NCBI GenBank assembly: GCA_017540585.1
Contig: JAFYAT010000010.1
Coordinates: forward strand, 1-63,076
Origin: Bacteroidaceae bacterium
GTDB lineage: Bacteria > Bacteroidota > Bacteroidia > Bacteroidales > Bacteroidaceae
Direction of reading: 5' to 3'
DNA: 63,076 bases
The translations under genes and the position numbers were made by a program. The first letter of the stretch is position 1. The number at the start of each line of letters is the position of its first letter. Under the pieces are notes generated by a model that searched no databases, was not told the DNA's origin, and saw only the letters and a list, made by a program, of their open reading frames with translations. Positions 10,359 through 26,612 of the stretch are shown in pieces.

Positions 10359-10997
10359 TTAAAGCTTGTAGTTTACCTTAATAACCAGCACACGGAGTTT
10401 CTGACTTGCCTCCTTTGTCTTAATCTTTGCCACGTGCCAGTCGCATGGGAACATTATGTTGAATGTGCCAGGGATGGACGCGAACTGTTCAAGTCTGTCG
10501 GCATCAAACTTATAGTCACAACGGTCCTTGTCCGTATTGAAAGGATTGGCAACGGATGTCTCATGGTCAAGACGGGCAAAGCCTTCAGTACCACGAACGA
10601 CATACATGAAGTCAATCTTCTTGCGATGACTCTCCGTACCCTTTCCTGCCTTCAGGTCATCCTGACTGCACCAGTTCTCGCTATCCTCCACACTCACCAC
10701 GAGGTCTGTTCCCTCAATAGGAATCCTACCAGCAGGAACGGCAAGGAGGTCGTGCGTCTGCAACCAGTTGAAGAGAGCCTTCCACTCCTCAGGATTACGA
10801 TGATACTGGATATAGAACTCCACAAGATTAACCGTAGGAGCAGGGACAGCCTTGGTAAAGCCATTACGCCACTCCCCTTTATTCACCCACTTCTGTGCCA
10901 GCTTCTGTATATCCTTAGGATACTCATTAGTATATGTCTGTGCATTGGCAGCCATGGATGCCACGACCAATGCCAGTGAAACGATTACCTTCTTCAT
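10359..10997 (-). CDS. Secreted YhcH/YjgK/YiaL family protein, copy A
   Basis: 212 residues with signal peptide MKKVIVSLALVVASMAANA. The mature part matches the YhcH/YjgK/YiaL (DUF386, EbgC-like) cupin family: ESHRKKIDFMYVVRGTEGFA (the 'H.k.iDi.yv..G.E' block), a PGTFNIMFPCDWHVAK block with the conserved histidine, and the terminal KLRVLVIKV strand. Known members are cytoplasmic sugar-handling proteins (sialic acid or beta-galactoside operons) that often bind a metal through His and Glu; here a signal peptide places it outside the cytoplasm. A paralogue about 85% identical by eye lies at 12286-12924 in the opposite orientation. Its own promoter is at 11024-11031. Confidence 0.75.
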   Translation of the reverse strand: MKKVIVSLALVVASMAANAQTYTNEYPKDIQKLAQKWVNKGEWRNGFTKAVPAPTVNLVEFYIQYHRNPEEWKALFNWLQTHDLLAVPAGRIPIEGTDLVVSVEDSENWCSQDDLKAGKGTESHRKKIDFMYVVRGTEGFARLDHETSVANPFNTDKDRCDYKFDADRLEQFASIPGTFNIMFPCDWHVAKIKTKEASQKLRVLVIKVNYKL

Positions 10998-12285: not shown

Positions 12286-12924
12286 ATGAACAAACTTATC
12301 CTATCAATAGCATTAGCTATGGCATCGATTGCCATAAATGCACAGACATACACAAATGAATATCCGAAGGACATTCAGAAACTGGCAGCAAAGTGGGTAA
12401 AGAAAGGTGAATGGAAGAACGGATTCACCAAGGCTGTACCTGCCCCAAGCGTGAACCTCGTGGAGTTCTACATACAGTACCACCGTAACCCAGAGGAATG
12501 GAAGGCTCTCTTCCGATGGCTGCAAGAAAATGACCTGCTCACCGTTCCTGCTGGCAGGATACCTATTGAGGGTACAAACCTCACGGTAAGCGTGGAGGAC
12601 AGCGAAAACTGGTGCAGTCAAGCCGACCTGAAGGCAGGTAAAGGCTCTGAGAGTCATCACCAGAAGATAGACTTCATGTATGTCGTGCATGGCACTGAAG
12701 GCTTTGCACGTCTTGACCACGATACTTCAACAGCTAATCCTTACAACGCAGACAAAGACCGCAAGGACTACAAGTTTGACGCCAACCGTCTGGAACAGTT
12801 CAACTCAATCCCCGGAACATTCAACATCATGTTTCCTTGCGACTGGCACGTAGCAAAGGTTAAGACACAAGAGGCAAGCCAAAAACTCCGTGTGCTCGTA
12901 ATCAAAGTGAACTACAAGCTTTAG
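12286..12924 (+). CDS. Secreted YhcH/YjgK/YiaL family protein, copy B
   Basis: 212 residues, the same length as copy A at 10359-10997 and about 85% identical by eye. Most changes are in the signal peptide (MNKLILSIALAMASIAINA) and in scattered conservative positions; the His- and Glu-containing blocks (ESHHQKIDFMYVVHGTEGFA, PCDWHVAK) are kept. No TAnnTTTG box lies in the 69 bp upstream, so expression probably comes from the lipoprotein promoter at 11044. Its function should match copy A: a metal-binding cupin acting on a sugar-related ligand in the periplasm, by family inference only. A strong hairpin follows at 13056-13095. Confidence 0.75.
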   Translation: MNKLILSIALAMASIAINAQTYTNEYPKDIQKLAAKWVKKGEWKNGFTKAVPAPSVNLVEFYIQYHRNPEEWKALFRWLQENDLLTVPAGRIPIEGTNLTVSVEDSENWCSQADLKAGKGSESHHQKIDFMYVVHGTEGFARLDHDTSTANPYNADKDRKDYKFDANRLEQFNSIPGTFNIMFPCDWHVAKVKTQEASQKLRVLVIKVNYKL

Positions 12925-14061: not shown

Positions 14062-14472
14062 CTACTCCAATGTTGACTCTACGAACGAAGCCAAGGCATC
14101 AAAATCTGCCTTATTTGGATGACCAGCCTGTATTGGTCCCATAGAGCCACGGCATGTAAACTGTCGTTCATCAACCTTGATGCCCTGTTTCTCGAGCAAT
14201 TCCTTTACCTTGGGATAGTTACTCTCAATAATTGCAGCAGAGGAGAAACAGATGACGCGTCCCACCATATCGGGAGTAAGAGTCTTTATAAACTTCTTAA
14301 CACGCCAGTCAACAACAGTGGCATATACGGCAGAGCCGAAATAGAGCACATCCACATATTCTGTTATAGGCTGGTCAATACTCTCAGCAGGAACACCGAC
14401 TTTGTCTGCCACAACTGCTGCCATCTTTCGAGTATGGCCAAATTTACTATAATATCTTATTGCTTTTGTCAT
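14062..14472 (-). CDS. Flavodoxin-like protein
   Basis: 136 residues. The start IRYYSKFGHTRKMAAVVADK contains a flavodoxin phosphate-binding loop (S-x-x-G-x-T-x-x-x-A), followed by a VLYFGSAVYATVVDWRVKKF segment typical of the flavin isoalloxazine loop. It is a small FMN electron carrier or flavodoxin-fold protein. It starts 61 nt after the GMC oxidoreductase stop with no TAnnTTTG box between, so it may be the last gene of the minus-strand operon beginning at 20318, where it could supply or accept electrons; that link is inferred. Confidence 0.75.
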   Translation of the reverse strand: MTKAIRYYSKFGHTRKMAAVVADKVGVPAESIDQPITEYVDVLYFGSAVYATVVDWRVKKFIKTLTPDMVGRVICFSSAAIIESNYPKVKELLEKQGIKVDERQFTCRGSMGPIQAGHPNKADFDALASFVESTLE

Positions 14473-14533
14473 AATGGTTAATTCTGATTCATGTATGTTA
14501 TCACTTAAGCGTAGCTTCTTACGAAACAGAATT

Positions 14534-15799
14534 TTATTGGTTAATAATATTTTTTGCTATACGCTTTGCAAGTGCCATGATGGTAAGTATTGGTGGAAGA
14601 CCAAGTGACTGAGGTAGTATAGACGCATCTGCCACATACATGTTGTCTGGCAACAATGGAGAATGGAGAGAGTCTGCCTCAGCAGCTGTGAGCGGAAGCA
14701 TACCACCAGGGTGACCTGCATTAAGTGTTCCGAGGAATATATCCTTTTCATTTGCACCCAATCGCATGAGAACCTCACGACAGTCATCCACACCACGTTT
14801 TAGATATTCATGGTCTGTGACTGTAAGAGTCTTCTGCATCCTGTTATCATGTACGTCTCCCTGTTCCACATCTGCAAGCTTAATCATAAGACTCACCATA
14901 CCATCCATTGGTTTATACCATTGCTTATTGAAGAAGAAACTTAGCCAGTCCATATAAGGAGAAATGATATATTTGTCCCTTATGCTGACAAATGGCATTA
15001 ACAACTGACGGTCCTGATGAACATTTGCCATAGGAGCAGCTACACAGAGCACTGGATCGACAAAGAGATGAGGCTGACAATCGATACCAGAGTTGCGAAG
15101 AATGTCAGGAGTACCATAACCTCCAGCAGCAACTATGATGACATCTGCTTCGTACGTCTCATGTCTCGACCCACGTGTCACATGAACACGTCTTGCCCTT
15201 CGGTCATCTATGTCTATATGCGTCACCTTACAACCTGTAATGACTTTGATGCCATCAAGAAGTTCACGTGTATCCCACTTAGCACGTGTAGGACATCCAA
15301 TAGAGCAATGTCCACACATACGACATTGTTGTGGGCGCAACAGTTTAGGCATAGGCTGAGGATCAAGTCCCATATCCTTCATCACCTCAAAAGTTCGTTT
15401 CGTAATAGGTAACCAACGACTCTGGTGATCTGTGGTTATAGGAAGTTCCTGAAACAGCTCATCAAATTCTGCATCAAGATTGATGCCAATCTTTTTCAGT
15501 CCTTCATCTGCACGAACGGCATTACCAGTAGCCAATGTCGTAGTACCTCCCAATCCGCGTCCATAGACCATAACCATCTCTGGATTCCTGTCTATACGCA
15601 TATTAGGGAGAAGGAGTTGTATAAGACGTTCATCAAAATACAATCCAGTCTTACGGAACTTAGCCAACTGTTCCAAGGGAAAAGAAAATGGTTTGAAAGC
15701 CTTACCTTGTTCCAATACTGTCACGTCAAAGTGACTTGACAACATCTTTGCAGCCGTGGCACCACCAGCACCACTTCCTATTATGATTGCTTTTTTCAT
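14534..15799 (-). CDS. GMC-family FAD-dependent oxidoreductase
   Basis: 421 residues from ATG 15799. The FAD-binding Rossmann motif is GSGAGGATAAKML at residues 7-19, followed by VTVLEQG. GMC features include MVYGRGLGGTTTLATGNAVR and the C-terminal block ADASILPQSLGLPPILTIMA. A cysteine cluster CRMCGHCSIGCPTRAKWD (about 160-177) resembles the segment of long-chain fatty-alcohol oxidases and related GMC dehydrogenases. It lacks a signal peptide and is shorter than typical GMC enzymes (500-plus residues). It starts 7 nt after the unknown 167-residue gene and is in the same operon as the reductase-ligase fusion, which points to oxidation of a long-chain alcohol or similar lipid. The substrate is inferred. 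Confidence 0.75.
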   Translation of the reverse strand: MKKAIIIGSGAGGATAAKMLSSHFDVTVLEQGKAFKPFSFPLEQLAKFRKTGLYFDERLIQLLLPNMRIDRNPEMVMVYGRGLGGTTTLATGNAVRADEGLKKIGINLDAEFDELFQELPITTDHQSRWLPITKRTFEVMKDMGLDPQPMPKLLRPQQCRMCGHCSIGCPTRAKWDTRELLDGIKVITGCKVTHIDIDDRRARRVHVTRGSRHETYEADVIIVAAGGYGTPDILRNSGIDCQPHLFVDPVLCVAAPMANVHQDRQLLMPFVSIRDKYIISPYMDWLSFFFNKQWYKPMDGMVSLMIKLADVEQGDVHDNRMQKTLTVTDHEYLKRGVDDCREVLMRLGANEKDIFLGTLNAGHPGGMLPLTAAEADSLHSPLLPDNMYVADASILPQSLGLPPILTIMALAKRIAKNIINQ

Positions 15800-15806
15800 T
15801 TTCGTT

Positions 15807-16310
15807 TTATCTATATACTGCCAGACAATTTTCACACCCTTCTGTAATACGTTTCTGGAAAGACAGTTTGCCGCTCCTACCAGACAATCCACGCATTATA
15901 CCATCATCCAACGCCGATGCAGCAAGACAAATGGCGGGTGTGTAATATTTACTAAAAAAACAACGTCTGAAGCACATATTACCTGGTATATGTCCTTCAA
16001 GTTCAATACCAATATTAAGATATAGACCTATGATAAACTGTTCAACATCATTCTGGTTTCTCAACAGTAATACTCGTCGCAGCATACGTCCCATTTTGAA
16101 AGCCTCGCCATTCATCCGTTGCAGCATCGCACTATCTACTCCGTTCTGTAAATTTGAACGTGTATATAAGGCATAAATACGCAGAGCCTCATCATTTGAT
16201 AGTCGCCACAAACGCATGGATGGTTTTCCTATGGCACGTGCCGTAAGATTCATCAGCAACTGTATTTCTATACGACGAAATAATGATGTCTTAATCAGCA
16301 TACATCTCAT
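15807..16310 (-). CDS. Unknown protein between ligase and oxidoreductase
   Basis: 167 residues, no signal peptide, basic N-terminus and helical middle (MNGEAFKMGRMLRRVLLLRN). The C-terminal half is the distinctive part: IPGNMCFRRCFFSKYYTPAI followed by CLAASALDDGIMRGLSG and ending RITEGCENCLAVYR. The CxxxC, single C and CxxC pattern suggests bound metal or a disulfide/redox role, but I do not recognise a family. The ATG (16310, or 16301) overlaps the end of the upstream reductase-ligase gene and the stop is 7 nt before the GMC oxidoreductase, so translation is probably coupled and the protein likely works with these two enzymes. Confidence 0.7.
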   Translation of the reverse strand: MRCMLIKTSLFRRIEIQLLMNLTARAIGKPSMRLWRLSNDEALRIYALYTRSNLQNGVDSAMLQRMNGEAFKMGRMLRRVLLLRNQNDVEQFIIGLYLNIGIELEGHIPGNMCFRRCFFSKYYTPAICLAASALDDGIMRGLSGRSGKLSFQKRITEGCENCLAVYR

Positions 16311-18975
16311 CTATGACCTGTTTGTAATGTTCCAGTACTACGTTACGCTTTACCTTCAGATTTGGCGTCAACTCTCCATTTTTGATACTCAATGGCACAT
16401 CTATTATACGCCATCGTCTCACCTGCTCAGGATGCGACAATGTATCGTTCATCCGCTCTATTTCCTGCTGAAGCTGATCTGTCTTACCGACAGTCCACAA
16501 CAGAGCTGTACAGTAAGGACGTTGTTCACCCACAAGGACTGCCTGATCTACACAAGAGATGTCGGTCAGACGCTGTTCTATCTTGGTACAATTGATATTC
16601 TTTCCATACGATGTGATAAGCATATCCTTCTTACGACCTCCGATATACACATGTCCATTCTCGTCAATATGTCCAAGGTCTCCAGTACGCAATTCGCCAT
16701 CCTTGAAAGTATCATCCTCCATCTTATAATATCCCATAGCAACCTGAGGGCCACGTACTATCAGTTCACCATCAGGATTTACCTTTACGGTTGTATCAGG
16801 CAGAGGAGTACCAATACTTGATATGACATTATCACCAATACGATTAAGTGTTATCAATGGTGCTTCTGTCTGTCCATAAGCATTATGAATTTCGATTCCC
16901 AAAGCACGGAAACGCAACAATAATTCCTCACTTATAGGGGCAGAACCGACAAGTAACTGTCCACACTTGTCAAGACCAGCCTTACGCAACACCACATAAC
17001 GCAATATACAACCAATCCTTTTCTTTGCACTACCCTCCTTCATCGAGAGATATTTTGCACCTAACGGATTATGTTCTATCTGTTCCCATAGTTTCTCATA
17101 GAAACGAGGAACTGAAAAGAATACCGTAGGACGCACCTTTGGCAAGGCTTTAGTCAGCATCTGGAAATCATTAAGATAATATATCTTGGACTTGCACAGC
17201 ATACAATATGGAGCATAGGCAGCCAAGATACCCTCCACCACATGACTCATTGGCAAGAATGACAAATAACGCATCTCACTATTTCGTCCACGCCATGACA
17301 ACAGATTTGTGAGGACTTCACCCATCCATTTCAATTGATGAAAACTGAACATCACACCCTTTGGTTCACCTGTTGTACCCGAAGTATAGCGGATTGTTGC
17401 CAGATTAAAAGGAGAAACATGTGTAGTTGTCTGAACAGAAGACTTTTCTACTATTATGTCAAACTTACCTGTTGCCAAAGGTCCAAAATATATGATTTGA
17501 ACATCTTTAGGCACAAGCCACAAATTACTTTTGATACGTTCGTCGCCTACGAAAAACCATCGTGCCCCACTCTTCTGCAAAAGCAAGGCTATCTCCTCGG
17601 CTGGTGTGGTGTAGTAGATTGGTACACTTACAGCTCCAACAAGTCCAATGGCATTATCTATAGCAGCATTTTCTGTGCAATTTATTCCAGAGAGAGCAAC
17701 AGTATTGCCAGTTTGTACTCCAAGAGCCCTCAACTGCCCCACAAACCTGTTGACAAGGGCATTCATTTTCCTTCCGCTAATCTCCTCTATACCTTGAGCG
17801 GAAATATTATAATACGAAACAGGATAATGACGACTTGCCCTGCGAACCATAGCCTGCTCAAAAATTGTCTTGTCTGTCAGACGCATAAAGTTATGACGAC
17901 AAGCAAAAGACAGCAATACAGGTAAATACTCTCGCCAGTCAAGGTCATAACTACCTGTCAGCTCGTCCGTATTAGTCCTATCAAACTGATGGTCATCGAG
18001 GAAATACGGCATCAAGGCAACAAGGTTAGACAATATGTTGCGACGCTTTTCTCCCTTACCAGCATTACGTCCTCTACCTATTGTACGCATCAGCGGAACA
18101 GGAACGCATACTGGGTCAGGTACGTCAATCTGAAGATTCTCTTTTGCCCACTTTCTTACCTCGCTCACAAGTTCGCCTACCGTAGGCAACTTGTCATAAG
18201 GTGCTGTCAAGTGGAATGTACGTCCAACAGCCTGCTTATTCATGGAAAGTTCTACAACAAGCCTTGCCACATAGTCAACTGGTGCAACATTAACTGTCTG
18301 ACTTCTACTGACAGGCAAGAACTTCATCTTGCCTTGCAACATCTGCTTGAGTACATAGTAGATAGTATTGAAGTTAATAGTTCTACCAGTCTGACTATTA
18401 CCGACAATCATACCAGGTCTGCATATTGTTATAGGCAAAGTGGTTTCCCTCACCATTCGCTCAGCCTCAGCCTTACTCTGTTCATAATGACTATTGAAAC
18501 GGGAAGGCAAAGGAGCATTCTCCATAATTCTTCCACGTGACCTGCCAGCCACATAGGCAGTTGATATATATACGAATCTCTTTAACTGTGGCATTTTATC
18601 TGCCATCAATATCATGTTCCTCGTACCCTCAATATTCATCGTGCGAAGTTCATCCATCGATTTCTGGATGCCTACCTCTGCAGCGTTATGGATAATATAG
18701 CTTGTGTCTGCGAGTACACACGAATAATCAGCGTCGCTCATGCCAAGACGGTCATGAGTAATGTCGCCAGTAACAGGTAAAACACGCTTTCCTATTTCGG
18801 CAGAAAGAACTTTATCTTCCCACCAGAGCGACTGCAATCTGTATGTTGCATCTGCAGTCGAAGCTGCACGTACTAACACACGAATAGTACAGTCTGTAGT
18901 TGATAGAAGGCGATGTACAATCTCCGTTCCCAACAATCCTGTTGACCCTGTTATGAAAAATGTTCCTTCAGCCAT
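16291..18975 (-). CDS. Fused NAD-reductase and AMP-forming acyl ligase
   Basis: 894 residues with two enzymes. Residues 1 to about 345 are a NAD_binding_4 (male-sterility/thioester-reductase type) extended SDR: TGSTGLLGTEIVHRLL, then YISTAYVAGRSRG and the catalytic YEQSK (YxxxK). Residues from about 360 are an AMP-dependent acyl-CoA synthetase: ATIRYTSGTTGEPKGVMFSF, NAYGQTEAPLITL, RTGDLGHIDENGHVYIGGRK and a C-terminal catalytic-lysine segment NGELTPNLKVKR typical of long-chain fatty-acid ligases. No phosphopantetheine carrier motif is visible. Together the parts could activate a fatty acid and reduce it to aldehyde or alcohol. The order is reductase then ligase, opposite to carboxylic acid reductases. 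It overlaps both neighbours, so it is part of a coupled operon. Confidence 0.8.
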   Translation of the reverse strand: MAEGTFFITGSTGLLGTEIVHRLLSTTDCTIRVLVRAASTADATYRLQSLWWEDKVLSAEIGKRVLPVTGDITHDRLGMSDADYSCVLADTSYIIHNAAEVGIQKSMDELRTMNIEGTRNMILMADKMPQLKRFVYISTAYVAGRSRGRIMENAPLPSRFNSHYEQSKAEAERMVRETTLPITICRPGMIVGNSQTGRTINFNTIYYVLKQMLQGKMKFLPVSRSQTVNVAPVDYVARLVVELSMNKQAVGRTFHLTAPYDKLPTVGELVSEVRKWAKENLQIDVPDPVCVPVPLMRTIGRGRNAGKGEKRRNILSNLVALMPYFLDDHQFDRTNTDELTGSYDLDWREYLPVLLSFACRHNFMRLTDKTIFEQAMVRRASRHYPVSYYNISAQGIEEISGRKMNALVNRFVGQLRALGVQTGNTVALSGINCTENAAIDNAIGLVGAVSVPIYYTTPAEEIALLLQKSGARWFFVGDERIKSNLWLVPKDVQIIYFGPLATGKFDIIVEKSSVQTTTHVSPFNLATIRYTSGTTGEPKGVMFSFHQLKWMGEVLTNLLSWRGRNSEMRYLSFLPMSHVVEGILAAYAPYCMLCKSKIYYLNDFQMLTKALPKVRPTVFFSVPRFYEKLWEQIEHNPLGAKYLSMKEGSAKKRIGCILRYVVLRKAGLDKCGQLLVGSAPISEELLLRFRALGIEIHNAYGQTEAPLITLNRIGDNVISSIGTPLPDTTVKVNPDGELIVRGPQVAMGYYKMEDDTFKDGELRTGDLGHIDENGHVYIGGRKKDMLITSYGKNINCTKIEQRLTDISCVDQAVLVGEQRPYCTALLWTVGKTDQLQQEIERMNDTLSHPEQVRRWRIIDVPLSIKNGELTPNLKVKRNVVLEHYKQVIDEMYAD

Positions 18976-20318
18976 GATTTAAAGAATTGACTCATTTGAT
19001 TTACTCTGTTCTCATTAATCACCTGATGTCTCTTGATGATTTCTATTATCTCCTGTCTGTGTGCATCAGCCTTTCGGAGAGAAGTAGAGATGCGCTCGCC
19101 CAAATCGTCATCATCCACATGATGAAGATAGTGGTCTGCAAGTTCTGTTTCCCGAATGACTCCATCAAGTCGTCCATCCATCGATATTGCCACTATCGGA
19201 ACGGCTTGCTTCATGCTAAGCACGGCAGCATGATACCTTGATGTTACCAACATGGAAAGATGACGTAACAGTCCTGTCATCTGGAACACATCATGATTTC
19301 TTGAATGGTACACTCCATGAGGTCCTTCAACGAGTTTTTCGAAGCATCGGCATGCCTCCTCGTCAAGTTTTTCCATACCGAGAATAACGACAAAAGCGTC
19401 ATGCTCATGCTGATAACTATTGACGGCACTTGCAATCTCTGACAAATAACGCATGAATTTCTCTCTGCGTTCTGCACTATCGCTAAAGAAATACATCTTG
19501 TCATATTGCATACTATGGTTACCAGTCACAACAGCCTTAACCCATTTTGATATAGACGGACGGACTGGCCACCAGAAAGGATTGATGACTGCCACTCCAA
19601 GCAAAGGCTTGTTTCCGTCCCATCCATCATCCATCAACTGTTGATATGCCCATTCCTTTCCTTCCGAAGTCATGAAAGGCCATGCCGTATCTGTACCTAC
19701 ATGTCCATTTAATCCTATTGCCTCCAAGTTCTTCATGGACGTATCTGTACGTGTGATGAAATAAACATCTTTACACATGTCATGGCTCAACTTGGCAAGC
19801 CATCCATCAAGGAGTCCCACTTCCGAGCCATAAGCTATACATGGCTTTCCCTGACTGCGCATGATACCAGCTGCCTGGCAATAGAACACAGATAGAGCCT
19901 CGGCAAACGTAGTAGTAAGCGTAGAGCCTTCACACAATACTGCTACATGATGTGTAGAACATGCACGCAGAAGAGAAAAGAAAAACATAGTCGTAAAAGA
20001 CAGACGATGAACATAATCAGGGAAATACCCATTGACATTATCATCATCAAGTGTCATAACTGTCATTTCTATATCTTCCTTGCCGAGTGACTCATCCATC
20101 TGTCTGACGAGTTCGACAACACGTGCATCTGCTCCCGTATTTCTTGCTCCGTTATATCCTACAAGCAATACCTTTATCTTTTTTCCTTTGCTCCATTCAT
20201 CATAACTACCAAGTCCGAAAACAGAAAGGAGCTTAACGTATCCTGAAAACCAAACTATCAGTCTTACGATGTATGATAGTAACTTATCCAATCTTTTTTT
20301 GTTTGTGCTTTTAAGCAA
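18951..20318 (-). CDS. Polysaccharide pyruvyl transferase family protein
   Basis: 455 residues, starting at a TTG (20318); an in-frame stop two codons upstream leaves no ATG option before residue 70. An N-terminal hydrophobic segment (LLSYIVRLIVWFSGYVKLL) may anchor it. The first conserved block is VLLVGYNGARNTGADARVVE, and the C-terminal block is LVTSRYHAAVLSMKQAVPIV, both typical of PF04230 (polysaccharide pyruvyl transferase fold, GT-B like). Known members add pyruvyl ketals to surface glycans, but some act differently, so the reaction is open. It is first in an operon overlapping the reductase-ligase gene by 25 bp. No clear TAnnTTTG box precedes it. Confidence 0.7.
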   Translation of the reverse strand: MLKSTNKKRLDKLLSYIVRLIVWFSGYVKLLSVFGLGSYDEWSKGKKIKVLLVGYNGARNTGADARVVELVRQMDESLGKEDIEMTVMTLDDDNVNGYFPDYVHRLSFTTMFFFSLLRACSTHHVAVLCEGSTLTTTFAEALSVFYCQAAGIMRSQGKPCIAYGSEVGLLDGWLAKLSHDMCKDVYFITRTDTSMKNLEAIGLNGHVGTDTAWPFMTSEGKEWAYQQLMDDGWDGNKPLLGVAVINPFWWPVRPSISKWVKAVVTGNHSMQYDKMYFFSDSAERREKFMRYLSEIASAVNSYQHEHDAFVVILGMEKLDEEACRCFEKLVEGPHGVYHSRNHDVFQMTGLLRHLSMLVTSRYHAAVLSMKQAVPIVAISMDGRLDGVIRETELADHYLHHVDDDDLGERISTSLRKADAHRQEIIEIIKRHQVINENRVNQMSQFFKSWLKEHFS

Positions 20319-20489: not shown

Positions 20490-20663
20490 TTACTGAGCAG
20501 GTGCCCATTTACAACGGACAGGTGAAACAATAGCACCCTCCTTCTTCAATTCTGCAAACGCCTTGTCAACCTCCTTACGGTCAGTACCCAAAGCCTTTGT
20601 CACATCGCCTGCAGAGACTGGCTTACCCGCCTCACGCATAGCCTGCAAAACTTTTTCTTTCAT
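20490..20663 (-). CDS. Small winged-helix DNA-binding protein
   Basis: 57 residues, MKEKVLQAMREAGKPVSAGD through CKWAPAQ. The pattern helix (KVLQAMREA), KPVSAGDVTKAL, then GTDRKEVDKAFAELKKEG and a short wing IVSPVRCKW is a single winged helix-turn-helix. Proteins of this size and pattern are annotated as small transcriptional regulators in Bacteroidales. It begins 14 nt after the PNPOx-like gene and so is cotranscribed with it. The palindromes around the promoter at 21274-21281 could be its target; this is inference. Confidence 0.75.
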   Translation of the reverse strand: MKEKVLQAMREAGKPVSAGDVTKALGTDRKEVDKAFAELKKEGAIVSPVRCKWAPAQ

Positions 20664-20677
20664 GATAATACCTTAAA

Positions 20678-21076
20678 TTAGAAATTAACAGTTTCAACCA
20701 ACTCCATCATCTTGAAGAAGTCTGCCTTAGCATCCTTAAGATAGTACATGACTCCATTCTCACCATTCTCTCCAAGAGCTGGCTTCAAAATTGGCATTCT
20801 TTCAACCAAAGCACGACCAACTTCTGGACGATTGTCCTCAACAAGCTTACATTCAATACGGAGTGTCTGTCCCTTGAACGCACAAATCTCAGCCTTTTGA
20901 TTAGCTGCAATCTGACGTGTTGTGTTTGTTTTTCCAAATGCCATGATATAAATCTTATCCTCATAATAGAGCATAGCTCCATAAGGACGTACACGAGGCT
21001 GGTCACCTTCTACTGTTGCAAGATAAAATGTTCCTGCACTCTCAAGAAAATCGAAAACTTTTTTTGAATCTGCCAT
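20678..21076 (-). CDS. Pyridoxamine-phosphate-oxidase-like FMN protein
   Basis: 132 residues. The split-barrel FMN-binding pattern is clear: FLESAGTFYLATVEGDQPRV, RPYGAMLYYEDKIYIMAFGK, TNTTRQIAANQKAEICAF. These small PNPOx-fold proteins bind FMN or F420/heme and act as flavin reductases or stress proteins; vitamin B6 synthesis is unlikely for this subfamily. No signal peptide. It precedes the winged-helix gene by 14 nt and has a promoter far upstream (21274-21281) with a leader of about 190 nt. Confidence 0.8.
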   Translation of the reverse strand: MADSKKVFDFLESAGTFYLATVEGDQPRVRPYGAMLYYEDKIYIMAFGKTNTTRQIAANQKAEICAFKGQTLRIECKLVEDNRPEVGRALVERMPILKPALGENGENGVMYYLKDAKADFFKMMELVETVNF

Positions 21077-21509: not shown

Positions 21510-22145
21510 TTAGAAGCGGTAACCAAACTTGACATCAAATTCGTTCCACTTGCCATCATGAGTACCCTTTGAGTAGTAGTTTGAAAAAGAAGGATTGTAA
21601 GACAAACCAAGCACAAAACGATTGATACCCAAATCAACACCAACCTGAGCTCCAAAATCCATACGCTTTAAGCCGTCATTCTCGCCAAACATATCAACAT
21701 GAAGTGTCCTTGAATCTTTCTTTAAATCATAAGAAGCATCAGTATTAACACCAATGCTAAGTCCTGCAAATGGCTCAATAGAGACATTTTCATTCACATT
21801 GATTACATACTTAAATATGACTGGAACAGAAACCCTGAAATAATTCTCTGAAAGATTGTCATACTCCTTACCATCAATAGTCTTGTTCTCATCTATATAT
21901 CCCCAATACATAAGCTTTGCACCCAAGATAAACTTAAAATTGGAGTTGTCGCCAAGGTCAAAAGCATGATTATATCCAAAAGTAAGACCGATAAATTCCT
22001 TCTTGTTCAAAGGTGAACCAACCTCACCTGATGACAAATTGGATGTAACAGGAGATAATGACATGTACACTTCATTGTTTTTCTGAGCATTAACATTCAG
22101 AGATAATGCAAGCATCATAAGAGATGCAAGAAAAAATTTCTTCAT
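21510..22145 (-). CDS. Outer-membrane beta-barrel protein (211 aa)
   Basis: 211 residues, signal peptide MKKFFLASLMMLALSLNVNA. The mature protein is built of alternating amphipathic strands with glycines (FIGLTFGYNHAFDLGD, VSIEPFAGLSIGVN, MDFGAQVGVDLGINRFVLGL) and ends on a strand with C-terminal phenylalanine (EFDVKFGYRF), typical of small 8-10-strand barrels (OMP_b-brl/OmpW-like). It resembles the three minus-strand paralogues at 24711-26612 in the N-terminal NEVYMSLSPVTSN motif, the IEPFAGL centre and the tail. Function unknown. It has its own promoter (22197-22204) divergent from the region before panB. Confidence 0.8.
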   Translation of the reverse strand: MKKFFLASLMMLALSLNVNAQKNNEVYMSLSPVTSNLSSGEVGSPLNKKEFIGLTFGYNHAFDLGDNSNFKFILGAKLMYWGYIDENKTIDGKEYDNLSENYFRVSVPVIFKYVINVNENVSIEPFAGLSIGVNTDASYDLKKDSRTLHVDMFGENDGLKRMDFGAQVGVDLGINRFVLGLSYNPSFSNYYSKGTHDGKWNEFDVKFGYRF

Positions 22146-22196
22146 AAGTATAGTTTATTCTTTAATAATTAAAATTTGTTATTCAAAAATAGTGCG

Positions 22197-22204
22197 CAAA
22201 TATA
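22197..22204 (-). promoter_or_regulatory. -7 box for the OMP at 21510
   Basis: Minus strand TATATTTG, about 52 nt upstream of the ATG at 22145. Confidence 0.6.
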
Positions 22205-22345
22205 CGTATTCTTTCATTACATACAAAGAAACAGGACAATTATTTCTTATTTTGGCACTTTTTGCCTGGAGTTTTTATATAACAAAGACGATTGAGGTCA
22301 AAGCAACAATATTATAATCAATTATCGCATATTTGAAATTCTAAA

Positions 22346-22455
22346 ACTACCATCATAAGAGAATTAGACTACCATGAAAATAAATTTTAACTACCATGAA
22401 GAATAAATTAGACTACCATCAAAATGAATTTAAACTACCATGAAAAAGAGCGTTA
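22346..22455. repeat. Five tandem 22-bp units, ACTACCAT array 1
   Basis: ACTACCAT begins at 22346, 22368, 22390, 22412 and 22434, exactly every 22 bp. The rest of each unit is A/T rich and less conserved (consensus GAAAATAAATTTAG). No reading frame is preserved because 22 is not a multiple of three. It lies between the divergent promoters at 22197 and 22532. A second array of the same unit in the other orientation is at 44770-44845. Confidence 0.85.
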
Positions 22456-22531
22456 TTCATAAGAGAACTTTATCATTCTTGTCGAATTGATATTATTTGC
22501 CCTTTTTGGTACATCGTAATTATTATATTCG

Positions 22532-22539
22532 TAACTTTG
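22532..22539 (+). promoter_or_regulatory. -7 box for panB
   Basis: TAACTTTG, 41 nt upstream of the ATG at 22581. Confidence 0.65.
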
Positions 22540-22580
22540 CAGTCCAATAAACAAAATACTACAACTTGAACTTTCAAAAA

Positions 22581-23402
22581 ATGGCAGGATATTTAGTAGA
22601 AGATCAGAAAAAGATTACTTCAACAAGGTTTACTCAGATGAAAGCACAAGGCAAGAAGATTGCCATGCTCACATCTTATGATTATACAATGGCGCAGATT
22701 ATCGATGCCGCAGGTGTGGACTCAATCCTCATTGGCGACTCTGCAAGCAACGTGATGGCAGGTAACGATACTACCCTCCCTATTACTCTTGATCAGATGA
22801 TTTACCATGCCCGCAGCGTGGCTCGTGGTGCAAAGCGTGCCTTCGTCATCTGCGACATGCCTTTCGGTACATACCAGATAAGTCGTGAGGACGGAATACG
22901 CAACGCAGTTCGTCTTATGCAGGAAACTGGCGTGGACTGTCTCAAGCTTGAAGGTGGCGTTGAGATTATCGACACTGTACGTGGCATCATCAACGCAGGT
23001 ATTCCTGTATGCGGACACCTCGGACTCACTCCACAGAGCGTATATAAGTTCGGCGGTTTCGGTCTCCGTGCCAGGGAAGAGGCAGAGGCAAACAAGCTCC
23101 TCTCCGATGCAAAATTACTTGAGGAAGCAGGATGTTGTGCCGTAGTACTCGAGAAGATTCCTGCAGAGCTTGCCAACAAGGTGACAGCAGCACTCAATAT
23201 TCCGACAATAGGTATTGGAGCTGGCAACGGCTGTGACGGTCAGGTACTTGTAGGACAGGACATGCTCGGCATGAACCGTGGTTTCAAGCCTAAGTTCCTC
23301 CGCCACTTTGCCGACCTATACACAGCCATCACGGATGGTGTTGGTGACTATGTACGTGCTGTAAAGGACGGCAGTTTCCCTAATGCTGACGAAGCATACT
23401 AA
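22581..23402 (+). CDS. panB: Ketopantoate hydroxymethyltransferase
   Basis: 273 residues from the ATG at 22581 (MAGYLVEDQKKITSTRFTQM); an upstream in-frame TTG would add five residues and is not needed. PanB makes ketopantoate from alpha-ketoisovalerate and methylene-THF for pantothenate and CoA synthesis, in the cytoplasm. Visible family motifs: MLTSYDYTMAQIIDAAGVDS, ILIGDSASNVMAG (metal-binding aspartate), CDMPFGTYQ, and IPVCGHLGLTPQSVYKFGGF. Full length for the family (about 265-275). It is monocistronic between repeat-rich intergenic regions and uses the codon bias of highly expressed genes. Confidence 0.97.
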   Translation: MAGYLVEDQKKITSTRFTQMKAQGKKIAMLTSYDYTMAQIIDAAGVDSILIGDSASNVMAGNDTTLPITLDQMIYHARSVARGAKRAFVICDMPFGTYQISREDGIRNAVRLMQETGVDCLKLEGGVEIIDTVRGIINAGIPVCGHLGLTPQSVYKFGGFGLRAREEAEANKLLSDAKLLEEAGCCAVVLEKIPAELANKVTAALNIPTIGIGAGNGCDGQVLVGQDMLGMNRGFKPKFLRHFADLYTAITDGVGDYVRAVKDGSFPNADEAY

Positions 23403-23499
23403 CAATACGGGAGTTAAAAAATGAGCAATAAATTAGAAAAAACAAGGGGTAAATAGAAGAAAAATAGGATAAAAGACTCTGCATTTGAATAAATATACA

Positions 23500-23507
23500 T
23501 AAATTTG
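23500..23507 (+). promoter_or_regulatory. -7 box with long structured leader
   Basis: TAAATTTG, about 132 nt upstream of the ATG at 23640. The leader contains a hairpin ATATCTC/GAGATAT near 23600-23622, close to the start codon, so translation control is possible. Confidence 0.5.
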
Positions 23508-23639
23508 CAGCGGATAAGGTGGGGAAAAGAATGTCTTTGAGAGAAGATGACGGTTCATTCATTCTCCAACGAACTTAGAATTAACTAATTTCCAATCGAA
23601 TATCTCAGAACCGGAGATATAAACTAACATTAGAACGAA

Positions 23640-24098
23640 ATGAAAAAGATTATTCTCAGCATGATTCTCGGAATCATGACAATCACAGCATCAGCTCAGC
23701 TCAAGTCTTTTGACATCAAGGGCGACCTCCGTGGCGACTTCGGTATTGGTGCCGGCGTTACTCTCGGCGTAAACGACAAGATTGACTTTGCTCCAGCATT
23801 CAACTGGTTCTTCACAGAAGGCAACCTTACAGTTTGGGCTATCGACGCAGACTTCCACTACAACTTCGACGTTGCTCAGGACTTCAAGGTTTATCCTATC
23901 GCAGGTCTTGCTCTCTACCACTGGAGCGTAAGCAACGAGGGTGTAAACACAGGTAAGACAAAGCTTGGTGTAAACCTCGGTTGCGGATGCCAGTATGATT
24001 TCTCTGACAACCTCGCAGGTTTCGTTGACCTCAAGTACCAGTGGGTTGATGGTGCAGACGACACATACTTCTCACTCGGTGTAAAGATTGGTCTCTAA
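23640..24098 (+). CDS. Small outer-membrane beta-barrel protein, copy 1
   Basis: 152 residues, signal peptide MKKIILSMILGIMTITASA. Mature strands include FDIKGDLRGDFGIGAGVTLG, IDFAPAFNWFF, WAIDADFHYNF, LGVNLGCGCQYDF and the terminal strand DDTYFSLGVKIGL. The pattern is that of an 8-strand Bacteroidetes barrel. The gene at 24188 encodes a homologue of the same length, so this is a tandem duplication. The codon use here is that of a well-expressed gene, unlike the following copy. Function unknown. A terminator follows at 24123-24158. Confidence 0.8.
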   Translation: MKKIILSMILGIMTITASAQLKSFDIKGDLRGDFGIGAGVTLGVNDKIDFAPAFNWFFTEGNLTVWAIDADFHYNFDVAQDFKVYPIAGLALYHWSVSNEGVNTGKTKLGVNLGCGCQYDFSDNLAGFVDLKYQWVDGADDTYFSLGVKIGL

Positions 24099-24122
24099 TC
24101 AACTGTTGAGAGCATTAAAACA

Positions 24123-24158
24123 AGTCGCTTGGATGCTTCGTGCTCCAAGCGACTTTTT
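24123..24158 (+). terminator. Rho-independent terminator
   Basis: AGTCGCTTGGA and TCCAAGCGACT pair around TGCTTCGTGC, followed by TTTT, 25 nt after the barrel gene stop. Confidence 0.8.
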
Positions 24159-24187
24159 ATCAAGCAAAAACATTAACTAACATTCAC

Positions 24188-24646
24188 ATGAAAAAGATTA
24201 TCCTCTGCCTTATCCTTACAGCATCAGCCATAACGGCATCAGCACAGAGCCATTCATTCAACCTCAAAGTTGACACACGAGACGAGCTTGGCATTGGTGC
24301 TGGTTTAACATACGGTGTAAACAAGCATTTCAATTTCAATCCTGCATTTATCTACTTCCCTCATACTGGCAACAGCAAATACTGGTCAATCGATTTTGAT
24401 TTCCACTATAACCTATACCTCACAAAAAATTTCAAGGCATACCCAATCATCGGTTTTGCCATATTCCATAGAGGAGGAAATAGCTATAATTATTCGGGAA
24501 GCACGAATGCGGGTTCAAACCTCGGTCTTGGATGCGAATATGATTTAAGCAAAAGAGTCACAGGATTTGCAGAAATCAAAAATCAAAACATAAAAAATTT
24601 GGGAGATGAGACATACGCTTCTCTCGGTATTAAAATTGGCTTTTAA
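24188..24646 (+). CDS. Small outer-membrane beta-barrel protein, copy 2
   Basis: 152 residues from ATG 24188 (MKKIILCLILTASAITASAQ); a longer frame upstream would read through the preceding terminator. It matches copy 1 at 23640 along its length: FNLKVDTRDELGIGAGLTYG, FNFNPAFIYF, WSIDFDFHYNL, NLGLGCEYDL and the terminal ETYASLGIKIGF. Identity is moderate, so the duplication is not recent. No TAnnTTTG box lies in the short gap, so expression may depend on read-through past the terminator. Function unknown. Confidence 0.75.
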   Translation: MKKIILCLILTASAITASAQSHSFNLKVDTRDELGIGAGLTYGVNKHFNFNPAFIYFPHTGNSKYWSIDFDFHYNLYLTKNFKAYPIIGFAIFHRGGNSYNYSGSTNAGSNLGLGCEYDLSKRVTGFAEIKNQNIKNLGDETYASLGIKIGF

Positions 24647-24692
24647 GCAAAATAAAGTCGCCTAGAAACATTTCCAAGCGACTTTATTTTGC
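24647..24692. terminator. Bidirectional terminator
   Basis: GCAAAATAAAGTCGC (24647-24661) and GCGACTTTATTTTGC (24678-24692) form a 15-bp stem with runs of A and T at the two ends. It separates the converging barrel genes and can terminate both. Confidence 0.8.
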
Positions 24693-24710
24693 TTATAACA
24701 TGTATATACG

Positions 24711-25319
24711 TTAGAATCTCACACCAAGCTTGAAATCTACAGATGACCACTTACAACTTGCGTCATCCCCGACTGATACGAAATTAGTGAAATCCTTAGC
24801 ATATCCAACACCAAGAATCAAACCATTAACATTTATATCAGCACCAACCTGCCATCCTAATCCGAAACGATTGTACCCATCATAATCGAACAAGCTTATG
24901 CTTTGTTTGCGTCCATACGAATCATAACCCGAAATATTGTATGAAATAAAGTATGAGCCATTAAAACCTGCATAAGGTTCAATTTTCAGACTATTAGCAA
25001 GCTCTAAAGACAATTTCAGATTCAATGGGAACTGACATCTGACACATTTTTCTTTTAATCCGTTTTCTTCGTCCCAAAGATAAGAAAGCTTTCCTCCAAA
25101 CACGAGATAAACCATATTATCTTTTTTAGACAGATAGTTATATCCTGCTGAAACAGAGTTTCCCTTTCCGCTTACACTCAGATCATTTCGTGCCCCTGGA
25201 ACAGATGCTTTCGTAGTCAGAGTAACAGGTGAATAATTGATGTAGAGTTCATTGCTTTGAGCATTAGCATTTGTAAGTCCTGCAAATGCCAACGATAATA
25301 CCATGAATAGCTTTTTCAT
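24711..25319 (-). CDS. Outer-membrane beta-barrel protein (202 aa)
   Basis: 202 residues, signal peptide MKKLFMVLSLAFAGLTNANA. The mature protein begins NELYINYSPVT, similar to the 21510 gene (NEVYMSLSPVT), has the centre SLKIEPYAGFNGSYF and WQVGADINVNGLILGVGYAK, and ends WSSVDFKLGVRF with a terminal Phe. It is the last of three such genes read together (26612 to 24711, gaps of 29 and 31 nt). Function unknown; a variable small porin or adhesin-like barrel is possible. Confidence 0.8.
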   Translation of the reverse strand: MKKLFMVLSLAFAGLTNANAQSNELYINYSPVTLTTKASVPGARNDLSVSGKGNSVSAGYNYLSKKDNMVYLVFGGKLSYLWDEENGLKEKCVRCQFPLNLKLSLELANSLKIEPYAGFNGSYFISYNISGYDSYGRKQSISLFDYDGYNRFGLGWQVGADINVNGLILGVGYAKDFTNFVSVGDDASCKWSSVDFKLGVRF

Positions 25320-25350
25320 CGAATAGCTTTTTGTTTAACTTCGTGACACA

Positions 25351-25980
25351 TTAGAAACGATAACCAATCTTGAGATTATAAGAGTACCACTTCTGCTCCA
25401 CTTTCACACCTTGTGAGACAGTACTATCAAAATTTGTGAAGTCATGCTGATACTCAAATCCTAATACAACATTACTGATTGCAAGGTTTGCGCCAAAATG
25501 ATATCCGACAGTTAAGCTATTAGCATCTGGGAACCATTTCTCGATAGCACTTTGACCAGAATACAGAATTCTGTCTTCTCCACTAAAGAAATAAGTAGCG
25601 TCAAGTCCCGCATAAGGCTCAAGAGTAACATTCGTTCCCAGTTCTGCAGCATACATAAGACTTACCGGAATCTGCATTCTTGTGAATATGGCATCATCCA
25701 TAACAACTCCAGCAATTTCCACATCACTACGCATCTTACCATACTGGAAGTTCATACCAACCATACAGTTCAATGGATTTGTTGCAGAAATTGGCACAAT
25801 ACGATTGTATCCTAAGCCAAAAGAAGTAAAATCCACATCCATATTCACTTTTACAGAAGAATTAGAGGAAGAAGAGGACATAGTTGGGAAATCACAAAGA
25901 AGATAAACTTCATTTCTCTGTGCAAAAGCACTTGTACACATAGCCATTGCAAGGGCAAGGGCAGAAAATAGTTTTTTCAT
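25351..25980 (-). CDS. Outer-membrane beta-barrel protein (209 aa)
   Basis: 209 residues, signal peptide MKKLFSALALAMAMCTSAFA. Family features: NEVYLLCDFPT start, a serine run (SSSSSNSS) after it, VTLEPYAGLDATYFF centre, FGANLAISNVVLGFEYQHDF and YSYNLKIGYRF tail. It is the middle gene of the three-gene operon, 29 nt after the 26010 gene. The serine-rich loop right after the first strand is the least conserved part of the paralogues and would face outward. Function unknown. Confidence 0.8.
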   Translation of the reverse strand: MKKLFSALALAMAMCTSAFAQRNEVYLLCDFPTMSSSSSNSSVKVNMDVDFTSFGLGYNRIVPISATNPLNCMVGMNFQYGKMRSDVEIAGVVMDDAIFTRMQIPVSLMYAAELGTNVTLEPYAGLDATYFFSGEDRILYSGQSAIEKWFPDANSLTVGYHFGANLAISNVVLGFEYQHDFTNFDSTVSQGVKVEQKWYSYNLKIGYRF

Positions 25981-26009
25981 TTTTCAAGAAATTAATTTAG
26001 TTATTATTA

Positions 26010-26612
26010 TTATTCAAATCGTAAGCCAACTTTGAAATCAATTGATGACCACTTTGTATTATAATCAGAAGAATAATTCGTAAAATCTTTCTCATAGCAC
26101 ACACCAATAACAAAATTATTTATGCGCAAATCCAAACCGACATGACCTCCAAAAGTAAAATGATTGAGTTCTCCTTCAGAGAACAGATCTACGGAAGAAG
26201 AACCTGAGCCATAAGGATTATCAGCAGAAACGGTGTGCACCATATACATAGACGCATTAAGACCCGCATAAGGTTCTAATGCACTCTCTTTACCCACCAT
26301 CAATTTACACTTGAGACTTGCTGGTACCTTTAATCTGAGAATATTCTCGGTAAAAGATTCTTCCTTATCCCAAATATAGGAGAGTTTGCCACCAATAACA
26401 AAATAACAATTGTCATTAAAGCAAGGATTCAGACTATTATAGCCCAATGACAATCCATAATTGTTATCACTTACACTTATCTTAGTGCCATTAACGGTTT
26501 CACTTGACGTAGCAAAAAGACTTGAATAACTTGCAAAAATTTCTGCTGCCTGAGCATTAGCTTTCTGCATACACGCAAACGTAATAGATAAAATAATAAA
26601 GATCCGTTTCAT
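26010..26612 (-). CDS. Outer-membrane beta-barrel protein (200 aa)
   Basis: 200 residues, signal peptide MKRIFIILSITFACMQKANA. Shared features: AEIFASYSSLF start, YNSLNPCFNDNCYFVIGGKL, SALEPYAGLNASMYM, HVGLDLRINNFVIGVCYEKD and the terminal WSSIDFKVGLRF (here with a final Glu). First gene of the three-gene operon, with promoter box at 26657-26664. It is closest by eye to the 24711 paralogue (identical stretches around KLSYIWD/KLSYLWDEE and KDFTNY/KDFTNF). Function unknown. Confidence 0.8.
   Translation of the reverse strand: MKRIFIILSITFACMQKANAQAAEIFASYSSLFATSSETVNGTKISVSDNNYGLSLGYNSLNPCFNDNCYFVIGGKLSYIWDKEESFTENILRLKVPASLKCKLMVGKESALEPYAGLNASMYMVHTVSADNPYGSGSSSVDLFSEGELNHFTFGGHVGLDLRINNFVIGVCYEKDFTNYSSDYNTKWSSIDFKVGLRFE

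Follow-up and report, generated by a model that had tools for sequence, protein, structure and literature searches.

What do four tightly packed genes in the genome of a Bacteroidaceae bacterium make together? The window analysed here, a 63,076-nucleotide stretch of DNA, is a single contig of a 3.6-Mb genome (86% complete) and carries a minus-strand cassette transcribed in the order PPT, FUS, UNK and GMC. PPT (18951..20291) encodes a pyruvyl-transferase-superfamily protein (PF04230) with a hydrophobic N-terminus, and FUS (16291..18975) an 894-residue fusion of a fatty-acyl reductase (approximately residues 1-365) with a ligase (approximately residues 366-894). UNK (15807..16310) encodes a 167-residue protein in which C117, C128 and C162 were invariant in 17 aligned rows, and GMC (14534..15799) a GMC-family flavoprotein (PF00732) containing the motif CxxCGHCxxGCP (C159, C162, C165, C169). 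PPT and FUS overlap by 25 nt, FUS and UNK overlap by 20 nt, and 7 nt separate the UNK stop from the GMC start. A preliminary description of this DNA had reported the tight packing and named the domains, and both were borne out, the former by the ORF listing and the sequence and the latter by an HMM search, which returned PF04230 for PPT, NAD_binding_4 with AMP-binding and AMP-binding_C_3 for FUS, and GMC_oxred_N for GMC, with no Pfam or NCBIfam family match for UNK.

The limits of the cassette were examined at both ends. The PPT open reading frame spans 20318-18951 with an opening codon at 20318, and translation may begin at codon 10 (TTG 20291), the position that opens 8 of 13 other cassette ORFs. 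Homologues support a predicted GMC start at ATG 15799, and a 452-residue reading of this gene from GTG 15892 was set aside as an over-extension. A flavodoxin gene (14472-14062) lies 61 nt after GMC and had been proposed as a possible member; its homologue was absent from the fetched sequence of every other cassette locus, some of which end just behind GMC or before it, and we did not retain it. The next gene, encoding an MBL-fold protein (13906-13157), was likewise rejected as a member, with a homologue in two loci only (L011 and L017). By eye we also observed two very similar 212-residue proteins with signal-like N-termini (10359-10997, minus strand; 12286-12924, plus strand), which flank a lipoprotein-like gene as an inverted duplication, and, within 21510-26612, several similar proteins of about 150-210 residues on both strands that have signal-like N-termini and resemble small outer-membrane barrels.

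All four genes were collinear in 11 of 11 complete loci from Prevotella-like genomes, the window included (the others being L009 (=L019), L011 (=L038), L012, L013, L014 (=L039), L015 (=L040), L016, L018, L037 and L041, where equated loci are those whose contigs have the same length). Four additional loci (L017, L020, L021, L022) were cut by contig or fetched ends, and the genes present within them kept the cassette order. Identities across the cassette loci (blastp) were 65-75% for FUS and 49-69% for UNK, which together with the constant order indicates that the cassette is more than a chance arrangement. The flanks were mostly unlike between loci; the window, L011, L017 and L018 had some neighbours in common, namely a PNPOx-like gene, a 56-residue protein gene and the MBL gene. 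Upstream of the cassette in the window (20490-21076) lie the 56-residue protein, whose counterparts in L017 and L018 are 93% identical over 56 residues, and the PNPOx-like protein, whose counterpart in L011 is 86% identical; their sharing suggests a common site in a subgroup of related loci. In three loci PPT is closely preceded by a gene that, by eye, we take to be MarR-like (L012 6210-6674, L016 3-449, L021 694-1200), a possible regulator.

A scan of genome contigs with FUS returned 14 loci, 12 of which were titled Prevotella, Prevotellaceae, Bacteroidaceae or Bacteroidales, with three of these 12 titles naming yak reticulum, roe deer colon or goat abomasum. In the other two (L023, L024) the ligase part alone aligned. 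Within the family, the UNK profile matched 7 of 399 genomes (this one included), and a search with the single UNK sequence matched 2 of 61 relatives; the cassette is therefore a sporadic trait. No paper was found on the four-gene set or its pairs in a literature search outside whose coverage most subscription papers fall, in agreement with the earlier remark that no described Bacteroidales pathway is known to have this gene set. Scattered homologues without synteny, a phosphopantetheine site in FUS and an already characterised pathway, any of which would have spoken against the preliminary description, were looked for and none was found.

The reductase domain of FUS matched NAD_binding_4 with 193.2 bits (residues 8-239), and its ligase half matched AMP-binding with 195.8 bits (392-750) and AMP-binding_C_3 with 46.8 bits (784-893), both above cut-off, such that the two halves occupy most of the chain. 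Invariant in nine aligned rows were GxTGxxG, S138, Y164xxxK168, SGTTGEPKG, YGQTE, TGD and LTPNLKVKR. The domain together with GxTGxxG and YxxxK is that of the NAD_binding_4 fatty-acyl/thioester reductases, and the score against the thioester reductase model TIGR01746 was 168.7 bits, below its cut-off of 213.35. At the domain level and in its motifs the other half corresponds to the long-chain acyl-CoA synthetases, an assignment made because of its AMP-binding_C_3 domain and FadD-type top NCBIfam matches; no ligase cut-off was reached among the matches listed. The substrate could also be another lipophilic acid, such as a bile acid or a plant aromatic acid, as models of thioester reductases and of 3-beta-HSD likewise match the reductase domain and many cassette records are of gut or rumen origin. 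We consider this very unlikely given the C-terminal domain type and FadD-type matches of the ligase, and given that the Myxococcota operons described below, in which PPT accompanies a fatty-acyl reductase (FAR), carry an enoyl-CoA hydratase and a lipid kinase.

The reductase precedes the ligase in FUS without a carrier, as first described: no PP-binding Pfam match was found, and a search of the protein for a carrier-serine pattern was also empty. A reversed carboxylic acid reductase with a hidden carrier was rejected on these grounds. Carboxylic acid reductases (NF041592; PDB 5mso) resemble FUS in joining an adenylating ligase to an NAD(P)H thioester reductase within a single polypeptide, but have the opposite order and a carrier, and FUS scored 164.7 bits against the NF041592 cut-off of 1300. 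Fatty-acyl reductases normally act on acyl-CoA, and because the ligase half resembles long-chain acyl-CoA synthetases, CoA can stand in for the carrier.

The order reductase-ligase had been presented as new, and here a precedent exists. ElbD of Myxococcus xanthus is described in the available text of PMC9131029 as a FAR-ACS-ACP-acyltransferase protein that is required for most of the ether lipid, with its acyl-CoA synthetase (ACS) and ACP activities, but not its FAR activity, confirmed in vitro. By that description ElbD, like FUS, begins with a FAR1-like reductase and continues with an acyl-CoA synthetase; unlike FUS, it adds ACP and acyltransferase domains. FUS had no ACP or AGPAT-like acyltransferase Pfam match at E<=0.1, and its ligase domain ends the protein. 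The neighbours described for ElbD in the same text (ElbA, B, C and E, with ElbC a protein of unknown function) also differ from PPT and GMC. We did not find the full FAR-ACS fusion in 112 Myxococcota genomes (E<=1e-70), where the ligase half alone matched, in a search that scored at most eight candidates per genome and may miss ElbD-type fusions.

One candidate role is accordingly an ElbD-like ether-lipid route, a narrower version of the alkyl or ether-type lipid explanation to which we return below. In such a route FUS would supply fatty aldehyde or alcohol for 1-O-alkyl/alkenyl phospholipids (plasmalogens), and PPT or GMC would carry out the ether-forming or redox chemistry done elsewhere by AGPS or CarF. 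The FAR-ACS order that FUS has in common with ElbD, as the latter is described, fits this route, as does the oxygen requirement given for CarF/PEDS1 chemistry in the partly available sources, which makes that chemistry of no use to an anaerobe. Plasmalogens are also reported, in the available text of PMC10056535, from Bacteroides thetaiotaomicron and as absent from the three other Bacteroides species examined. FUS, however, is without the ACP and acyltransferase domains of ElbD, the four cassette genes showed no acyltransferase, AGPS-type or phosphatase domain in Pfam, and the cassette is present in few genomes. We consider this route fairly improbable.

PPT passed PF04230 with 38.8 bits (cut-off 25.3) and reached 86.5 of the 213.1 bits required by the CsaB NCBIfam model, and it was rejected as a plain CsaB on this score. 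R190, R361, H363 and R383 (within SR-x-HA and D-x-R) were invariant in alignment A8, which holds 15 rows from both phyla, Bacteroidota and Myxococcota. In CsaB, R148 and H308 are critical, K328R remains active and R306 is a predicted PEP contact, according to the available text of PMC10435577. The PPT residues R190, R361, H363 and R383 appear to match CsaB R148, R306, H308 and K328, as judged by motif. PPT resembles the ketal-pyruvyltransferases CsaB and Pvg1p in superfamily (PF04230) and, by this motif match, apparently in the PEP-binding Arg, Arg-x-His and a basic residue, but differs in belonging to a separate subfamily and in lying beside fatty-acyl reductase genes in Myxococcota. A PPT profile search of the PDB gave chance-level matches only (E 0.034 or worse), and tblastn against plasmids gave no match. 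The cross-phylum A8 profile found the own genome alone among 128 Bacteroidota genomes (E<=1e-10), and the PPT subfamily is therefore rare in Bacteroidota.

Searching 140 genomes of Myxococcota, the phylum of L023, with the PPT profile (cut-off 1e-20) gave matches in 17, all with E-values of 3.5e-78 to 1.6e-92, which marks a separate PF04230 subfamily. These proteins were 32-35% identical to the window PPT (ten aligned rows), and the CsaB model scored 60-72 bits (cut-off 213) in the three of the 17 that were tested. The surroundings of all 17 (L112, L116, L117, L128-L141) were labelled with local profiles, with Pfam and NCBIfam names for the operon genes taken from three representatives (L112, L116, L128); the surroundings of L117 and L129 were cut by contig ends. 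In 15 of the 17 loci PPT was immediately preceded by a FAR gene of the same orientation, the exceptions being L132 and L129, whose contig begins just before PPT. Sixteen loci also had a second, FAR1-type reductase, which in L112 matched NAD_binding_4 and, below threshold, Sterile. Genes for an enoyl-CoA hydratase and for one or more acyl-CoA ligases were each present in 15 loci (L138 having a single partial ligase about 8 kb away), and a YegS/DAGK-type lipid kinase was present in 11. Eight loci (L112, L116, L128, L132, L133, L134, L137, L139) had a FUS-type ligase right after PPT, and the operon ligase of L112 was of the AMP-binding_C_3/FadD type, like the ligase half of FUS. UNK and GMC were labelled by their profiles in none of the 17. 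The set as a whole runs FAR1-type reductase, FAR, PPT, often a ligase, enoyl-CoA hydratase, a second ligase and lipid kinase, and no description of such a PPT-FAR gene set was found in the literature searched.

The pairing of PPT with FAR and ligase genes therefore recurs in two phyla, with gene order differing. In a FAR tree of 47 rows the cassette and operon clades joined with 31% support, and in an ACS tree of 37 rows cassette and operon sequences fell in one 27-row group with no resolution and a long-branch warning. As neither tree gave the two a private shared ancestor, the cassette and the Myxococcota operons may have come together independently. Scored with the cassette FAR profile, standalone FARs reached 141-220 bits and the Myxococcota operon FARs 84-151. 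FAR genes were also observed in 13 other Bacteroidota genomes (of 198 searched), and three such neighbourhoods (L106, L107, L110) had no PPT, ACS, UNK or GMC match.

The preliminary description had paired a long-chain alcohol or aldehyde with a glycan modification. Spelled out, PPT would pyruvylate a sugar and FUS would make the fatty-alcohol aglycone of a pyruvylated glycolipid. The characterised PF04230 members CsaB and Pvg1p do pyruvylate saccharides (available text of PMC10435577), and PPT retains residues that appear to match the PEP site. The link to glycans did not hold up well: the four genes include no glycosyltransferase (flanks surveyed by eye, Myxococcota loci with chosen profiles), PPT and its tested Myxococcota relatives score far under the CsaB cut-off, and those relatives sit in lipid-gene operons. 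A pyruvylated glycolipid appears improbable as the product.

UNK and GMC form the last part of the cassette. In UNK, C113 and C159 were also kept in all 12 cassette rows; of the 17 members, 4 showed a weak ATC_hydrolase resemblance (E 0.018 at best), and a profile search of the PDB gave nothing better than E 1.1. GMC matched GMC_oxred_N (PF00732) with 59.3 bits (cut-off 23) and GMC_oxred_C with 20.6 bits, below the cut-off of 24.6. C159-x2-C162-x2-C165-x3-C169 and H363 were invariant in 17 of 17 rows, and the spacing CxxCxxCxxxC is that of ferredoxin [4Fe-4S] clusters. Fer4 was above cut-off in a GMC relative (L035; 22.0 bits, cut-off 21.1) and below it in the window GMC, where Fer4_10 reached 16.2 of 25.5 bits. 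With its [4Fe-4S] ligand motif, GMC is predicted to be an iron-sulfur flavoprotein, and gene adjacency makes UNK its likely partner. A comparable arrangement is the FAD glucose dehydrogenase gamma-alpha complex of Burkholderia, described in the available text of PMC6719666 as a GMC subunit that carries a 3Fe-4S cluster and has a small partner; UNK-GMC is alike in combining a putative Fe-S GMC protein with a small protein, here from gene adjacency only, and the Burkholderia complex differs in its 3Fe-4S cluster and Cys spacing. The best-scoring NCBIfam GMC model was that of mycofactocin MftG (TIGR04542), but GMC scored 55.2 bits of the 400 required and no mycofactocin gene is among the cassette four; we rejected GMC as a plain MftG.

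UNK and GMC are also a separable pair, with a second context in another Bacteroidota class. Of 296 Bacteroidota genomes the GMC profile matched three: the own one and a pair from the genus g97 of that class. Within the g97 class it matched 7 of 119 genomes, all of them g97 (at least one g97 genome had no GMC). In all seven g97 loci (L035, L036, L071-L075) the order was radical SAM/SPASM gene, UNK, GMC, and the seven stretches had no PPT, FAR or ACS match. Radical-SAM and UNK matches fell in a single open frame in L072, and in L073 the UNK match was shortened and GMC was present by profile search but not picked in the ORF listing. A small hydrophobic protein of 134-147 residues was observed between radical SAM and UNK in four loci (L036, L073, L074, L075), and upstream in some g97 loci lies a large 'SQTGTITG...' protein that by eye is TonB-type-receptor-like. 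In two genomes (G099, G319) ligases are present but unlinked. A tblastn search of plasmids with GMC gave one match (28% over 76% of the query). The occurrence of the pair behind a radical SAM gene with no PPT or FUS nearby argues for a role of GMC of its own.

This bears on the simplest use of a reductase and a GMC flavoprotein that share an operon, namely redox cycling or fatty-acid detoxification, in which FUS would reduce acids to alcohols and GMC/UNK would re-oxidise them with no new lipid formed. A loop that makes and re-oxidises an alcohol, as earlier envisaged, is unlikely as stated, since UNK and GMC also occur apart from FUS, and it leaves PPT without a role. In addition, for the catalytic His/Asn or His/His pair of GMC oxidoreductases, H363 was invariant, and the residue aligned with the Asn of the cholesterol oxidase motif GVNP was Pro402 in 17 of 17 rows. 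This Pro casts doubt on plain alcohol oxidation and suggests that the chemistry of GMC may not be of the ordinary kind, although in the g97 rows L035 and L036 the preceding residue is an Asn. We hold redox cycling to be highly doubtful.

We tentatively favour, with a little less than even confidence, the reading of the cassette as a self-contained, sporadic set for lipid biosynthesis that would yield an alkyl or ether-type lipid. It draws on the recurrence in Myxococcota of PPT beside FAR genes with acyl-CoA ligases close by, on the collinearity of all four genes in every complete locus despite mostly differing flanks, and on the need for ElbD, likewise FAR then ACS, for most of the M. xanthus ether lipid as described. 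The report in the available text of PMC11868695 that elbD homologues do not guarantee ether lipids counts against it, as do the lack of acyltransferase, AGPS-like and phosphatase domains in the four genes, the rarity of PPT in Bacteroidota, the absence of UNK and GMC from the 17 Myxococcota loci and the tendency of standalone FARs to score higher than operon FARs with the cassette profile. From the families, and building on the observed gene set, gene order and conserved residues, we infer the following catalytic steps. The ligase half of FUS, by its domains and intact motifs, would use ATP to join a free long-chain fatty acid to CoA, and the reductase half would draw on NAD(P)H to convert the acyl-CoA to a fatty aldehyde or alcohol. 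PPT would then transfer a group, pyruvyl or related, to an acceptor that may be the alcohol, an alkyl lipid or a small polar molecule, and the UNK-GMC pair, as an iron-sulfur flavoprotein, would perform an oxygen-independent redox step on an intermediate, giving the alkyl or ether-type lipid.

A further and more speculative reading, which we think rather less probable, is that the pyruvyl-transferases include a branch acting on lipids, with PPT as its founding member. Taken jointly, this reading would have PPT use PEP, or transfer a group in some other way, on fatty-alcohol or alkyl-lipid acceptors supplied by its partner reductase and contribute to an undescribed class of surface lipid, anaerobically with GMC/UNK in gut Bacteroidota and within a longer operon in Myxococcota. 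If true, one branch of a family annotated for polysaccharides would be linked with fatty-acyl reduction in both phyla, and some Prevotella relatives of the gut and rumen would produce a lipid that may be undescribed. The iron-sulfur GMC with UNK would then employ, independently of oxygen, a fold familiar mainly from oxidases.
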